Positions 5,556 to 9,498 of a stretch of DNA of 21,023 nucleotides are shown in pieces. The notes under the pieces were generated by a model that worked only from the letters and a program-made list of their open reading frames with translations, ran no database searches and had not been told where the DNA came from. Source of the stretch: a virus; the IMG/VR virus record IMGVR_UViG_3300039309_000253, positions 1 to 21,023 of that record, one strand, 5' to 3'. The first letter of the stretch is position 1, and each line of letters begins with the position of its first letter. The position numbers were made by a program, and so were the translations under genes.

Positions 5556-6014
5556 TTACGCTGCCTTGAGCATCACGAAGGGACGAGCCTGAAATGCGGC
5601 GAGCACGGCCTGGCGGTCGCGCGGCGATACACCCCACTGCGCCTCGCGCCGGTTGTTGTAGAAGGCAATCTGCGAAGCCGTCTGCCGCCGGCCAGGAAGG
5701 GCTTCGTCCAGGAACCCGATCGCCGCGCGGTTTTCGTTCGCCGTCAGTACCTTGAGGCATCGCAGAGTGTGCCCGCTCCACGTCCAATCGCGGATGGGCT
5801 GGAGACCGCGCGCCGCTTTGTAATCCGGATAACCGCGGCGGCCAGACTGTCCCGGCTTCAGCGGCGCCGCCGCTTGGTCGTAGATGTTCCGCCCGCTCTG
5901 AATGCGTGCCCGGATCAAATCCGCCAGCACCTGAGCGAAGCCCTGCATCTCTGTCGCGGTGTAGGGCGAGTACACGAAGCGGGCGCGGCGGATGACGGTT
6001 TGGAATCTGGCCAT
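5556..6014 (-). CDS. Phage virion morphogenesis / tail completion-like protein
   Basis: 152 residues, MARFQTVIRRARFVYSP.... A helical N-terminus (QGFAQVLADLIRARI) leads to APLKPGQSGRR, WSGHTLRCLKVL, RAAIGF, QIAFYNNRREAQWGVSPRDR. That order (linker with PLK, a T/SG-x-L segment, an IGF strand, then a closing aromatic-Arg motif with a PRDR-like end) resembles the Mu gpG / HK97 gp10 type of tail completion or morphogenesis protein. The match is by motif order only, so the family is tentative. It sits between the chaperone-like genes and the tape measure gene, but a 2.4-kb insertion now separates it from the gene upstream. The ribosome binding site is weak (GAG 9 nt before the ATG), possibly because the native upstream sequence was displaced. 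Confidence 0.65.
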   Translation of the reverse strand: MARFQTVIRRARFVYSPYTATEMQGFAQVLADLIRARIQSGRNIYDQAAAPLKPGQSGRRGYPDYKAARGLQPIRDWTWSGHTLRCLKVLTANENRAAIGFLDEALPGRRQTASQIAFYNNRREAQWGVSPRDRQAVLAAFQARPFVMLKAA

Positions 6015-6051
6015 GGGTGCGCTCGGCGGAACACCAACGAAAACTCGCTAA

Positions 6052-6078
6052 CGGGTCAGTCTCCGGAATGGGCGTTTC
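6052..6078 (+). repeat. Left inverted repeat of the insertion
   Basis: CGGGTCAGT at 6052-6060, then a diverged middle, then GGCGTTTC ending at 6078. It pairs with the reverse complement of 8466-8491. Confidence 0.55.
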
Positions 6079-6564
6079 GCGGCAACTTGAGGGGGGCGGA
6101 CCTGACGGGAGCGATCCGGCGAAGCTTCCTCGAACGCCGATTGGGGCAAGATCCCGACAATACCGCTATCGGTCCACTGGCCCCAACGGACCCGCTCAAC
6201 CACAGTTACACGGACCGGACTGTTTATCTTCGAGACAGCAAGCTCAAGCGCGCCAGGTTGGAGTTTATAGGCAACACCCCCCCACGGCTGGCGCTGCTGC
6301 GATAGGAAGGGTGTTGAACCCGATCCGCATGAGCAGCGGTTTCGCAAGACAATCACGCGCTTTCGGACGGAAGCGCGGTTGCTGCGACAGATCGCGGCAT
6401 ACCTTCACACGGAACGCCGCTTTGCCCTCTGCCCGGAGTGGGTCGCCGTGGCAGCACTGCTGCCATTGCACGAATCCTGAGGGCCGCCTGGTGATCGAAG
6501 ACGACATGGCCACCTCTGCCGCCAAATCCGACAGTTCTGAGCAACGCCAATCTTCGATGGCGTA

Positions 6565-6599
6565 TCACCAGTCAAGCCGCTCGTCAGAAATGCTGGTGA
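6565..6599 (-). repeat. Inverted repeat just after the Cys-rich peptide gene
   Basis: TCACCAG (6565-6571) and CTGGTGA (6593-6599) form a perfect 7-bp inverted repeat with a 21-nt loop, beginning immediately after the stop codon of the peptide gene. There is no T-tract, so a Rho-independent terminator is not supported. It could stabilise the 3' end of a short peptide mRNA. Confidence 0.35.
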
Positions 6600-6770
6600 C
6601 TAGGTACAGGCATCACTGCCATCAGCGCTGCCACAGTCATCACAGGGCTCGTCATTATTGCTGCAATTGGAAGCGGAATCACCTGTTACTCCGAGAAACT
6701 CAACCGAGCACGGTTCAGTGAGCAAATCGAGATCCTCGGCACTTTGCGTTAGCGTTTGTGTTGTTCCCAT
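6600..6770 (-). CDS. Cys/Asp-rich small peptide, candidate RiPP precursor
   Basis: 56 residues from ATG 6768-6770, 5 nt after the radical SAM gene stop (TAA-GAACA-ATG). A longer in-frame start at 6836 would overlap the radical SAM gene by 61 nt and add a basic tail unlike a leader, so I prefer the internal ATG. A purine-rich GGAAAGGG lies upstream inside the radical SAM gene; its spacing is long (about 15 nt), so translational coupling may be used. Residues 1-20 (MGTTQTLTQSAEDLDLLTEP) are acidic and Cys-free, like a leader. Residues 21-56 hold five Cys (C21, C36, C43, C46, C55) among Ser, Asn, Asp and Gly, ending ...DGSDACT. Two Cys have Asp four residues on (C36...D40, C46...D50), the spacing of Cys-Asp thioethers in freyrasin-type ranthipeptides. 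The substrate role is inferred from adjacency to a SPASM maturase; I recognise no family. Confidence 0.65.
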   Translation of the reverse strand: MGTTQTLTQSAEDLDLLTEPCSVEFLGVTGDSASNCSNNDEPCDDCGSADGSDACT

Positions 6771-6775
6771 TGTTC

Positions 6776-8197
6776 TTATGTATTTCCCTTTCCTGTTTGA
6801 GCTCTTAAGCGAAGTTCTTCTTCGAGAAGGCGGCATGTGAGTTCACGAGAACTGTTGCACCATTCGGAGTCCTGGGCCATGCGTCTCCCAGAAACGACCA
6901 GATTATTGTAGTAGCATCCTGCCGTGCATTGAACGTTCGCGATACATTCTTTACAGCATTCTGGCGTGGAGGCCAAATCGGCTAACATCGAATCCAGAAG
7001 GGGCAGATCAATTACAAAGTGCTGAGTCGTTGGGTCATAGTTCCCGTAATGGAAGTGTTTCCCAATAAAGCCGCTGTCGTCAGCAGATCTGTGGCAAGAA
7101 GTAAGCCGTCCATTCGGCGTGACGCAAACGGCCTTCGCCGCCACACTGCATCGCCGATTAGTCCCGTCGAAGCGTGCAATAGAAGATGTCACCCGCATTC
7201 CGAGGTCCCGTCCACGCAGACGAGCGGACCAAATCGCTTCGACGAACGCAGACTGGGATGGCGGCATGATGCCTGACTGATGGGCACGGCCAACCTTGGC
7301 CAATGGTTCAAAATGAACTTTCCGAACTCCGAGGGAGTGAAACAGTTCTAGCGCGGCAGGCATATCTGACACGCTCTGCGCACTTACAGTGCTCCTGATT
7401 CCAACTTTGCAGCCCCGATCGATCAGAAAGCTGATATTCTGCACAACTGTTTCGAAGACGTTCTTGCCATTTCGTGAGGGCCTGTGAAGCGCCATCACAT
7501 TCGCAGTTCCGTCGAGCGAGACCGTTACCCTAGAAATGTGCTGGGCTATCCATTCACCAGTGGGCCGACCCCATGTGCCATTTGTAGTGAGAACCGCGTC
7601 GAAGCGAAGCGTTTTCGCGTTACAAACGTCGTATGCGTATTTCCAAGTTTCTCGCACAAGATCCCAAGAACTGGTGGGCTCGCCTCCACCGCAGAAACTT
7701 AGAGAAAAATGGCGTTCACCGTTGCCGTCGATTAGGCCGATGACGAGGTCGACGGCCGCTTTGGCGACATGTTGAGAGATGGTGGTCGTGTCGGTGCCGC
7801 CAGCACTAAAACAGTACGCACAACGCAAATTGCAATCGGCTGTCGGAAGAAGGATCAGGCGAGTAGGATTGAAGGCTGGCTTTATCTCCTCGTTGTTTGA
7901 CGGATAGTTGTCAATGAAACCATGCTGAAAAAGCTTCCCGAGAAACTGGCTACGGGATGGGCTAGAAGTCGAGATGAAGGAGATATTGCGGCCACTGACA
8001 CTCCTCAAGAAGTCCCACGTAGCCTCGTTGACCTCGAACACGAGGCGCTTGGAGGGCGCATACACCAAAACTCGATTGTCGCCACGTTTCTGGCCGAGAA
8101 GACGACACAGAAAGTGATCGCTCCCGCCCAGCGATGGAGGCGTGTCCGTAGTCGATCCTGGGAACATGGCTGCGGGCATAGCGCTGTGTGGCCTCAT
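6776..8197 (-). CDS. Radical SAM/SPASM peptide maturase
   Basis: 473 residues. Residues 26-100 (VFEVNEATWDFLRSV, FLGKLFQHGFID) resemble the PqqD-like peptide-recognition region found at the N-terminus of many maturases; this is tentative. The radical SAM core starts at ILLPTADCNLRCAYCF with the CX3CX2C cluster C122/C126/C129. The GGEP motif (FCGGGEPTSS) is at 171-174, and VTVSLDG and GIRSTVS are core strands. The C-terminal SPASM region carries C350, C358, C368, C414, C415, C418, C424, C428, C447 and C455 (CVTPNGRLTSCH; CCKECIANVQCTAGC), enough for two auxiliary 4Fe-4S clusters. Such enzymes form thioether or C-C crosslinks in ribosomal peptides. The start at 8197 overlaps the preceding 27-codon ORF by ATGA and has AAGGG 9 nt upstream. 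Codon use is less GC-biased than in neighbouring phage genes. The substrate is probably the Cys-rich peptide encoded 5 bp downstream. Confidence 0.93.
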   Translation of the reverse strand: MRPHSAMPAAMFPGSTTDTPPSLGGSDHFLCRLLGQKRGDNRVLVYAPSKRLVFEVNEATWDFLRSVSGRNISFISTSSPSRSQFLGKLFQHGFIDNYPSNNEEIKPAFNPTRLILLPTADCNLRCAYCFSAGGTDTTTISQHVAKAAVDLVIGLIDGNGERHFSLSFCGGGEPTSSWDLVRETWKYAYDVCNAKTLRFDAVLTTNGTWGRPTGEWIAQHISRVTVSLDGTANVMALHRPSRNGKNVFETVVQNISFLIDRGCKVGIRSTVSAQSVSDMPAALELFHSLGVRKVHFEPLAKVGRAHQSGIMPPSQSAFVEAIWSARLRGRDLGMRVTSSIARFDGTNRRCSVAAKAVCVTPNGRLTSCHRSADDSGFIGKHFHYGNYDPTTQHFVIDLPLLDSMLADLASTPECCKECIANVQCTAGCYYNNLVVSGRRMAQDSEWCNSSRELTCRLLEEELRLRAQTGKGNT

Positions 8198-8277
8198 GGT
8201 ACTAGCCCTTGATTGCGACGAATTGCCCAGATGGTAAATGATGGAAGGCGACGAGATCTTTTATCCAGCGTCTCCAT
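8194..8277 (-). CDS. 27-residue ORF overlapping the radical SAM gene
   Basis: ATG at 8275-8277 is preceded by AGGAG with a 6-nt spacer, the best ribosome binding site in the insertion. It encodes METLDKRSRRLPSFTIWAIR plus seven residues and ends in TGA that shares ATGA with the radical SAM start (4-nt overlap). The peptide is basic, with one Trp and two Phe/Ile-rich positions, and has no Cys. It may be a translational-coupling leader that sets maturase expression, or a second peptide substrate. I recognise no family. The ribosome binding site and overlap are seen directly; the function is not known. Confidence 0.6.
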   Translation of the reverse strand: METLDKRSRRLPSFTIWAIRRNQGLVP

Positions 8278-8305
8278 TTCGGACTCCTGTGTCCTGTCCA
8301 CTATC

Positions 8306-8328
8306 CACCCAGTCTAGTATACACCCAG
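8306..8328 (-). promoter_or_regulatory. Possible promoter and direct repeats upstream of the RiPP cassette
   Basis: On the minus strand, TATACT (8316-8321) is a good -10 hexamer about 39 nt upstream of the 27-codon ORF; no good -35 is seen at the right distance. It is flanked by two copies of CTGGGTG (8322-8328 and 8306-8312) with a 16-bp period, which could be a regulator site. The remaining sequence from 8329 to 8465 shows no gene I can support. Confidence 0.35.
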
Positions 8329-8465
8329 CCACCGTCTATTGATTCTGGTGTTGCGTCGTGCGTCGACGATGGATCTCGTTGGTGGGCCGGTTAAGTCCGG
8401 TTGGGGGAAGTTTGCACTGCGGGATGCCTCCAATGAGACGCCGCTCATCGCATCCACTTGGACAA

Positions 8466-8491
8466 GAAACGCCAAACCGCTAACTGACCCG
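8466..8491 (-). repeat. Right inverted repeat of the insertion
   Basis: Read on the minus strand from 8491: CGGGTCAGT, a diverged middle TAGCGGTTT, then GGCGTTTC. It matches the left repeat at 6052-6078 with one gap. It forms the last codons and the stop of the gene at 8480-8878. Confidence 0.55.
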
Positions 8492-8878
8492 TGACCGACG
8501 ACCCTGAGCGCCGGTGTCCCCATTGTTGATCTGCTCCTGCCGCTCGGCCTCCGTCATTTCCAGTACCCGGAACTCCTCTTCCGTGATATCCGCCAGCGTG
8601 ATCGTCAGCCCGATACTCTTTGCGTTCAGAAGGCGGAAACACCGCCGAACGAGAGCGCCGTTCGGCGTATCCATCGCCTCTTCGAGCATATTCTTCGGAC
8701 AGCCGGGCCCATGGCTGACGTCGACGGCCTTCCAGTCCGCACCGCAGGCAGGGCAGCCATCCAACTCCGTTTGGTCTGAGTAGCCGCACTTCCGGCAACG
8801 GAAGACGCGGTCGGGACAATCTTCCTCGGCTCCGCACAGCCCACCCTGATGCAGCACCGACCGGATCAGGAATCGCAC
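8480..8878 (-). CDS. Zinc-ribbon protein, second tail-assembly-chaperone-like gene
   Basis: 132 residues from GTG 8876-8878, located between a tail-assembly-chaperone-like gene and the tape measure region, where the T part of a G/GT pair is usual. A zinc ribbon is visible: C28-R-K-C31 and C42-P-A-C45 (FRCRKCGYSDQ...GCPACGADW), with further Cys at 15 and 21. The C-terminal part (EEEFRVLEMTEAERQEQIN) is helical and acidic. The frame stays open upstream to 9028, and it is -1 relative to the preceding gene, so it may be expressed as a frameshift product; the stretch just before the GTG (APGDWPDEPG) reads like real protein. Its last three codons and stop (CGG GTC AGT TAG) lie in the inverted repeat of the insertion, so its C-terminus has probably been replaced. 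Confidence 0.7.
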   Translation of the reverse strand: MRFLIRSVLHQGGLCGAEEDCPDRVFRCRKCGYSDQTELDGCPACGADWKAVDVSHGPGCPKNMLEEAMDTPNGALVRRCFRLLNAKSIGLTITLADITEEEFRVLEMTEAERQEQINNGDTGAQGRRSRVS

Positions 8879-8910: not shown

Positions 8911-9498
8911 CTATTCCGGGTCTTCGTCGGCCTCGATTGCCAGTTGCGCGATAACTTCGGACACCGCCGCCGACTTGTGAACGATGGGCACGGCACCGGC
9001 ATAGCCGTCGTGCGAGATGTGCAGCTTGTCATAGAGCGCGCCGCTCGGCTCCAGGAACGCCCGCGTCTCGATGGACCGCCGGGCAGCGACTACGCTGGTC
9101 GAAGCCCGCTCGTGGTCCTGCATCTCCTTGGCGGTCGGCATCCGCAGCACGTGAACCACGCGCGTGCCGGGGACTTTCATCTCGATCCGGTAGTTGATCC
9201 CTTCGCGCTCCACGTTGGCCACGGCGCACCGCTCGATGCGGCCGATCACCATGCCGGCCTCGGCATCATCGAAGACCGGGCCGTCCTTGTCGGTGCGGAT
9301 CTTGGCGAACAACTCCGCGTTGATCTTCGGCAGGTCCACGTCCTCGCTCTGCGACTTCCCGCGCCCCAGAAAATGTCGCACGGTGCGTTGCGCGCGCGCC
9401 CAAGCACACCACTCCTCGTCCGAAGGGAACCGCACCTCGCAGCTCTTCTCGCCGCCCGACAGGATCGGCACCACAAACGGCTTGCTTGCGTCAAACAT
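8911..9498 (-). CDS. Tail assembly chaperone-like protein
   Basis: 195 residues, MFDASKPFVVPILSGGEKSC.... It follows the major tail protein gene and precedes the tape measure region, the usual location of the tail assembly chaperone. The sequence is mixed alpha/beta, with FPSDEEWCAWARAQRTVRHFLGRG near the N-terminus and IAQLAIEADEDPE at the end, as expected for a small cytoplasmic chaperone that coats the tape measure protein and is absent from the virion. GGAGA lies 9 nt before the ATG (from 9508 back to 9499), between it and the major tail gene stop. Assignment rests on gene order more than on sequence. Confidence 0.65.
   Translation of the reverse strand: MFDASKPFVVPILSGGEKSCEVRFPSDEEWCAWARAQRTVRHFLGRGKSQSEDVDLPKINAELFAKIRTDKDGPVFDDAEAGMVIGRIERCAVANVEREGINYRIEMKVPGTRVVHVLRMPTAKEMQDHERASTSVVAARRSIETRAFLEPSGALYDKLHISHDGYAGAVPIVHKSAAVSEVIAQLAIEADEDPE

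Follow-up and report, generated by a model that had tools for sequence, protein, structure and literature searches.

A probable minimal radical SAM RiPP cassette carried as a moron between the tail-assembly and tape measure genes of a siphophage

How does a gene for a radical SAM/SPASM maturase, closely followed by one for a small cysteine-rich peptide, come to lie among the tail genes of a bacteriophage, and what might the pair do there? RiPP pathways are usually found on bacterial chromosomes or plasmids, together with genes for export and immunity. The question is raised by virus record IMGVR_UViG_3300039309_000253, the whole of which (21,023 bp) forms the window analysed here. We consider it probable that the pair is a minimal radical SAM RiPP cassette, carried as a moron in a phage hotspot between the tail-assembly and tape measure genes. 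What is new is the combination, that is, a probable minimal RiPP pathway of enzyme and peptide in a phage hotspot; the enzyme family itself is known.

The window carries the structural operon of a siphophage on its minus strand, with genes for terminase, portal, head protease, major head protein, tail protein and tape measure. The maturase and peptide genes (Table 1) share the strand of this late operon. The conserved gene that separates the tail protein gene from the hotspot matched no Pfam or PHROG family; it presumably occupies the position of a tail-assembly chaperone. Just beyond the tail genes, on the plus strand, positions 460–1059 encode a HicB-like antitoxin [PHROG 497, 8.2e-23], whose HicA partner, if there is one, may lie outside the end of the record. 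Rfam and tRNA searches gave no matches. When a host was sought, 297 Acidobacteriota genomes contained nothing that matched the major head protein; for the terminase, only four of 396 genomes gave matches, at 42–46% identity.

Table 1. Positions of the maturase, the candidate precursor and the surrounding features in the window
Feature	Position	Strand	Basis
Tail tape measure protein, 1345 aa	1518..5555	-	PHROG tail length tape measure, 1.5e-08
Conserved downstream flank gene, 152 aa, directly before the tape measure gene	5556..6014	-	81–95% identity, 80 loci kept
Accessory cargo interval, outer edges approximate	6016..8500	.	Homology breaks; G+C
Candidate RiPP precursor, 56 aa, acidic, 5 Cys	6600..6770	-	ORF; composition and shuffles; neighbours of relatives
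Radical SAM/SPASM RiPP maturase, 473 aa, intact	6776..8197 (start codon 8197)	-	ORF; Pfam; NCBIfam; AlphaFold2; CteB match
SPASM region, seven Cys (C350 to C447), auxiliary clusters	6857..7150	-	Sequence; 7/7 invariant in 52 relatives
CX3CX2C motif, C122-X3-C126-X2-C129	7811..7834	-	Sequence; invariant in 52 relatives
RRE-like leader-binding domain, N-terminal, residues ~29–95	7913..8113	-	Secondary structure of the model; start of the CteB/TigE alignment
Conserved gene flanking the site upstream, 132 aa; cargo boundary at its 3' end	8480..8878	-	~72–91% identity, most sister phages
Conserved upstream operon gene, 195 aa, between tail protein gene and hotspot	8911..9498	-	88–99% identity, 80 loci kept

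The earlier note on this DNA had described a complete radical SAM/SPASM maturase, and all the motifs are indeed present. The end that it had set for the locus, 8277, has to be corrected: the maturase begins at 8197, 80 bp further in. The CX3CX2C motif is the site of the SAM-cleaving 4Fe-4S cluster, a GGGEP motif occupies residues 170–174, and the SPASM region follows the pattern C350-X12-G-X4-C368 ... C415-X2-C418-X5-C424-X3-C428 ... C447. These ten cysteines, three in CX3CX2C and seven in SPASM, are the set expected for three iron-sulfur clusters, and all ten are invariant in an alignment with 52 relatives. The maturase scores above the cut-off for Pfam Radical_SAM [PF04055; 3.4e-10, 40.8 bits, cut-off 29.5], while no NCBIfam model was matched above its cut-off. 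The best of these was PapB [NF047865; 4.8e-35, residues 113–438, 121.3 bits against a cut-off of 340]; the SCIFF model [TIGR03974] gave 101.9 bits (cut-off 425) and the nif11 model 97 bits (cut-off 519). By each feature examined the protein belongs among the radical SAM/SPASM RiPP maturases in the broad sense. It falls in no named subfamily, and the earlier note had recognised none.

An AlphaFold2 model of the maturase, built on 47 alignment rows (pLDDT 86, pTM 0.87), found its top solved match in CteB [5wgg; Z 34.0 over 412 residues, model residues 25–465], a RiPP maturase that forms a thioether. TigE was also matched (Z 29.0, model residues 23–466). The N-terminus of the model consists of three strands (residues 29–57) followed by helices (residues 58–91). 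Because CteB and TigE cover this part, whereas enzymes that lack it, such as anSME and ChlB, align only from residue 106–111 onward, the N-terminus looks in the model like the leader-binding domain of such maturases, which in CteB is an RRE. In a tree the maturase stands on a long branch outside the SCIFF rows, its immediate neighbour being left unsettled. A pairing with an Edwardsiella plasmid enzyme (80/35) was discarded as a weakly supported meeting of long branches. Membership of the SCIFF maturases was rejected as well, on the score below cut-off, the position outside the SCIFF rows of the tree, and the different pattern and position of the peptide.

The peptide gene begins 5 nt past the maturase stop codon (intervening bases 6771–6775). 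As the earlier note had it, residues 1–20 are acidic and free of cysteine. The five cysteines stand at positions 21, 36, 43, 46 and 55, and the whole peptide has 12 Asp/Glu and no Lys/Arg (charge about -12.5, pI about 4.05). Chance was estimated from 5000 dinucleotide shuffles of the DNA downstream of the maturase. Since a 56-codon ORF beginning at most 40 nt away arose in 18% of the shuffles, the length of the peptide is by itself unremarkable. Such an ORF with a Cys-free stretch of 20 residues at its start and at least five Cys arose in 1.2%, and one that combined five or more Cys with 12 or more acidic residues in 0.24%; composition and position together are remarkable. Cys-X3-Asp motifs, which involve two of the five Cys, are not above shuffled sequence (P about 0.15), and this chance-level count was not accepted as a sign of PapB chemistry.

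No close relative of the peptide was found in viral contigs, nor did a single-sequence search of viral and genome contigs find one of the maturase. As these scans return mostly radical SAM core matches, the absence of closer maturase kin is only as good as the scans. Relatives of the maturase without a neighbouring peptide had been named in advance as the finding that would count against the pair, and the neighbours were read individually. Most of the nearest relatives do adjoin a small Cys-bearing gene, the peptides being dissimilar to the one of 56 residues. What most relatives have in common is the position of the neighbour and not its sequence. A maturase from Acidobacteriota, 34% identical over residues 119–428, is followed directly by a 50-residue acidic peptide with a terminal six-Cys tail. 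Its locus (L415:1390–2805, L432:4884–10820) comprises a gene for a seemingly trypsin-like protease, the maturase, the 50-residue peptide and three further genes on the same strand, and is the nearest cellular counterpart of the phage pair. Behind the relatives on Salmonella and Edwardsiella plasmids come 57–59-residue peptides and genes for an ABC transporter and S8 peptidases. The relatives in Methylocystis, Coriobacteria and a Nitrospirae MAG have Cys-rich neighbour proteins of 127–146 residues (128 in Methylocystis). Further relatives have candidate peptides of 57 and 65 residues nearby, and the one from Caballeronia has a Tat-signal-like Cys-bearing protein as its neighbour. A wider sampling of 303 Gammaproteobacteria and 318 Alphaproteobacteria genomes contributed one additional, weaker maturase relative.

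For some of the maturase's close relatives the partner is a WD40-repeat protein and not a small peptide. In four loci (L244, L249, L298 and L419) the WD40-repeat partner has a Tat-signal-like twin-Arg N-terminus, sometimes accompanied by a second radical SAM gene, and these pairs may represent another uncharacterised maturase-substrate system.

No second copy of the phage pair, on which conservation of the peptide frame (the other check named in advance) could be read, came out of these searches. The peptide is best supported as partner by what it is made of, by its spacing from the maturase and by the arrangement seen in relatives. It is the probable RiPP precursor and substrate of the maturase. 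The earlier suggestion of an enzyme with its precursor is in keeping with the rarity of this composition by chance, with the neighbours in relatives and with the CteB-like fold.

Sister phages were gathered by their terminase, by the gene upstream of the site and by the gene downstream of it, and in most of them the flanking proteins are about 75–98% identical. DNA homology to them stops at 8448–8539 (mostly 8501–8530, in one case 8766), inside the 3' end of the upstream flank gene, and restarts mostly at 6005–6033, the boundary being placed at 6014–6016, the start of the downstream flank gene. The site between these boundaries (loci L088–L167 and L324–L399) was met in 154 occurrences, which reduce to 80 distinct inserts in 72 clusters, ranging from 48 to 6734 bp with a median of 1.4 kb; the minimum of 48 bp is found in relative L160. 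None of the inserts of sister phages, over the 154 occurrences, held a radical SAM gene or the 56-residue peptide. The content of the site differs in nearly every sister phage; the pair is not integral to the morphogenesis operon, and the locus behaves as exchangeable accessory cargo, a moron. Of the phage operon setting described in the earlier note, the shared strand within the structural genes stands.

Base composition was compared as well. The insert of the window has a G+C of 0.553 versus 0.621 (s.d. 0.012) for the backbone, and the mean of 71 other intervals is 0.556 (s.d. 0.021); GC3 is 0.57 in the maturase and 0.47 in the peptide gene versus 0.74–0.86 in phage genes. Antisense orientation relative to the operon was seen in 46 of the 72 insert clusters, and the cassette of the window is in the sense orientation. 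Neither a sigma-70-like promoter nor an excess of terminator-like sequences was recognised in 5900–8700, by a consensus which may not be that of the host. Given that no promoter of its own was recognised and that it is read in the same direction as the late operon, the cassette may be expressed only late. In the same interval six-frame translation of the plus strand at 6016–6480 gave two coding-like frames, one of them with NLRGADLTGA as in pentapeptide repeats. This stretch, which has no close relative in the phage set, is probably the remnant, in two frames, of an older, decayed cargo gene.

When 99 proteins encoded by the hotspot inserts were compared with Pfam and PADLOC, the scans recognised TIR, AIPR/AbiU, FRG, GmrSD and PemK domains, Mrr and DpnII-like nucleases, and further C5 methylase, Vsr, ORC-CDC6-like ATPase, HD-CE, CARF and PD-T4-6-like kinase domains; many inserts have no recognised domain. 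Judged by its high turnover and these defence-type sequence families, the site appears to be an antiviral-type hotspot. Its association with the cassette yields likelihood, not function. Several big inserts carry ORC-CDC6-like ATPases (L131:4917–10409, L104:8817–15220 and L116:9241–12885). That of L131 has a CARF protein besides [6e-83]; matches to HD-CE, C5 methylase and Vsr are also present among the large inserts. The ORC-CDC6-like inserts look like uncatalogued multi-gene defence systems. With 72 unrelated clusters beside the tape measure gene, the hotspot is a ready source of candidate antiviral genes, in most of which no domain was recognised.

As to mechanism, we propose that the N-terminal RRE of the maturase would bind the Cys-free acidic N-terminus of the 56-residue peptide. 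The CX3CX2C cluster would then cleave SAM, and the resulting 5'-deoxyadenosyl radical would take hydrogen from the peptide core. At least one of the five Cys within residues 21–56 would be converted to a thioether or another Cys-dependent crosslink, the SPASM clusters assisting. Sactipeptides and ranthipeptides, in which a thioether runs from Cys sulfur to an alpha or a beta/gamma carbon respectively, had served the earlier note as examples, and either linkage is at most a candidate here. Within the lysogen or the infected cell the product would act on competing phages or serve as a superinfection factor. Across the record we recognised neither a transporter nor a protease that would serve the peptide, as the earlier note had stated for the cassette. 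Since none is adjacent and the company at the site is of defence type, intracellular action is the most likely. As to function we favour a peptide that works within the cell as an antiviral or superinfection factor, at a little under an even chance. A more specific version, an antiviral system of maturase and RiPP only, with a crosslinked intracellular effector and swapped through the tail-operon hotspot, is possible though rather less than likely. Some weight remains on roles not listed here.

A bacteriocin is our second choice, and a doubtful one: the modified peptide would be freed at lysis of the lysogen or infected cell and kill related bacteria. As its gene shares the strand of the late operon, the peptide could be produced shortly before lysis, which would take the place of an exporter, and the Salmonella and Edwardsiella plasmid relatives with their ABC transporter and S8 peptidases fit secreted peptides. 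However, no immunity gene, leader peptidase or transporter is adjacent, 56 residues with the leader attached and a charge of -12.5 would be unusual for a membrane-active bacteriocin, and the other inserts at the site are, as far as recognised, not bacteriocin-like.

One might also suppose that the insert is a decaying passenger, in which the peptide ORF arose by accident and the maturase has another substrate or none. The single known copy would agree with this, as would the frequency of 56-codon ORFs in shuffled DNA, the decayed-looking opposite-strand gene in the same interval and the want of a recognised promoter. We regard it as unlikely, for the maturase gene has 473 unbroken codons and keeps each of the cluster Cys, the composition of the peptide is rare by chance, and the 5-nt spacing and the pattern in relatives indicate a real partner.

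The virion-linked role which the earlier note had listed beside the other two, whereby the maturase would modify a small peptide or a tail protein entering the particle, is quite unlikely. It would suit the location within the tail operon, and unrelated large phages do have a radical SAM/SPASM gene placed between the genes for a Cys-repeat tail protein and a free Cys-repeat protein on one side and a tail-fibre-like gene on the other. Here, however, the site is dispensable, its content being unrelated between sister phages and reduced in one to a few dozen bases, the flanking tail genes are without a Cys-repeat domain, and the maturase is nearer to cellular enzymes than to those of the Cys-repeat phages (about 25% identity). 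Because the content of the site varies and often consists of defence-type proteins, a superinfection or defence role is favoured over a virion-linked one at this locus. Lastly, a viperin-like enzyme producing modified nucleotides is very improbable: viperins are antiviral and PADLOC pVip models match the maturase [4.3e-10 and 6.5e-07, 37.5 bits], but only over core residues 119–278, viperin structures reach a Z of about 19 where CteB is far better, and the maturase has an RRE-like part and a seven-Cys SPASM region, which viperins are not known to have.

The phages with Cys-repeat tail proteins merit description in their own right. At least five unrelated phage contigs (L170/L435, L172, L436, L437 and L442/L443) carry a radical SAM/SPASM gene in the tail module. 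The gene order is tape measure, small tail protein, a protein of 847–1025 residues with a C-terminal Cys-repeat domain (38–89 Cys; 87 in L436), a free Cys-repeat protein of 115–292 residues, the radical SAM/SPASM enzyme, itself with N-terminal Cys repeats, and a tail-fibre-like gene (L170:4918–9137, L436:4059–9482, L437:1723–7066, L172:3000–7241 and L442:3738–8963). In two more viral contigs small Cys-repeat proteins accompany a radical SAM/SPASM gene; baseplate and tail fibre genes lie nearby in one (L218:4702–9095), an opposite-strand tape measure gene in the other (L169:2347–11218). The arrangement in the five contigs suggests that virion proteins are crosslinked enzymatically. Among the papers searched by text, none joined radical SAM with cysteine-rich phage tail proteins.

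Returning to the proposed cassette, its enzyme and peptide may be set beside characterised RiPP systems. The CteB/SCIFF-type maturases [5wgg, 5why; comparison loci L253–L263] likewise combine RRE, radical SAM and SPASM domains and have an adjacent gene for a Cys-rich precursor. CteB and the phage maturase, however, share about 19% identity, and the SCIFF precursor has six Cys in about 45 residues and is usually encoded upstream, whereas the phage peptide has five Cys in another pattern and is encoded downstream. The PapB type (freyrasin) provides the top NCBIfam model and has an acidic Cys/Asp-rich precursor, PapA, with six Cys-X3-Asp (PMC9413430) against two in the phage peptide.

The setting also has parallels. 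The portions of Rousset et al. (2022, PMC9122126) drawn on here describe antiviral hotspots of P2-like phages and P4 satellites as high-turnover, defence-rich intervals, typically of 1–5 kb, between conserved genes, and in those portions no description of a RiPP cassette was found. On that account our site is similar in being a small, high-turnover, defence-rich interval between two conserved phage genes; the P2/P4 hotspots are placed near cos, whereas this one belongs to another phage family and lies beside the tape measure gene. Accessory genes among structural genes include that of Tab of phage JBD26, a late-operon moron which blocks rival phages (PMC10884400), and that of HK97 gp15, which protects the lysogen from rival phages (cited in PMC10884400). 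These are single unmodified small proteins, whereas here there is an enzyme with a probable modified peptide.

RiPPs directed against phages have their precedent in the Streptomyces anti-phage lanthipeptides, which act intracellularly (reviewed in PMC12360287; cited in PMC12715929), and co-location of RiPP with defence genes is reported (PMC12715929). The likeness lies in a RiPP pathway that is antiviral inside the cell, which for the phage cassette is a proposal; the differences are lanthipeptide chemistry in actinobacterial defence islands as against predicted radical SAM chemistry in a phage genome. If the product does block rival phages, radical SAM RiPPs would stand with the lanthipeptides among antiviral peptides, and compact RiPP pathways could be sought in phage hotspots.
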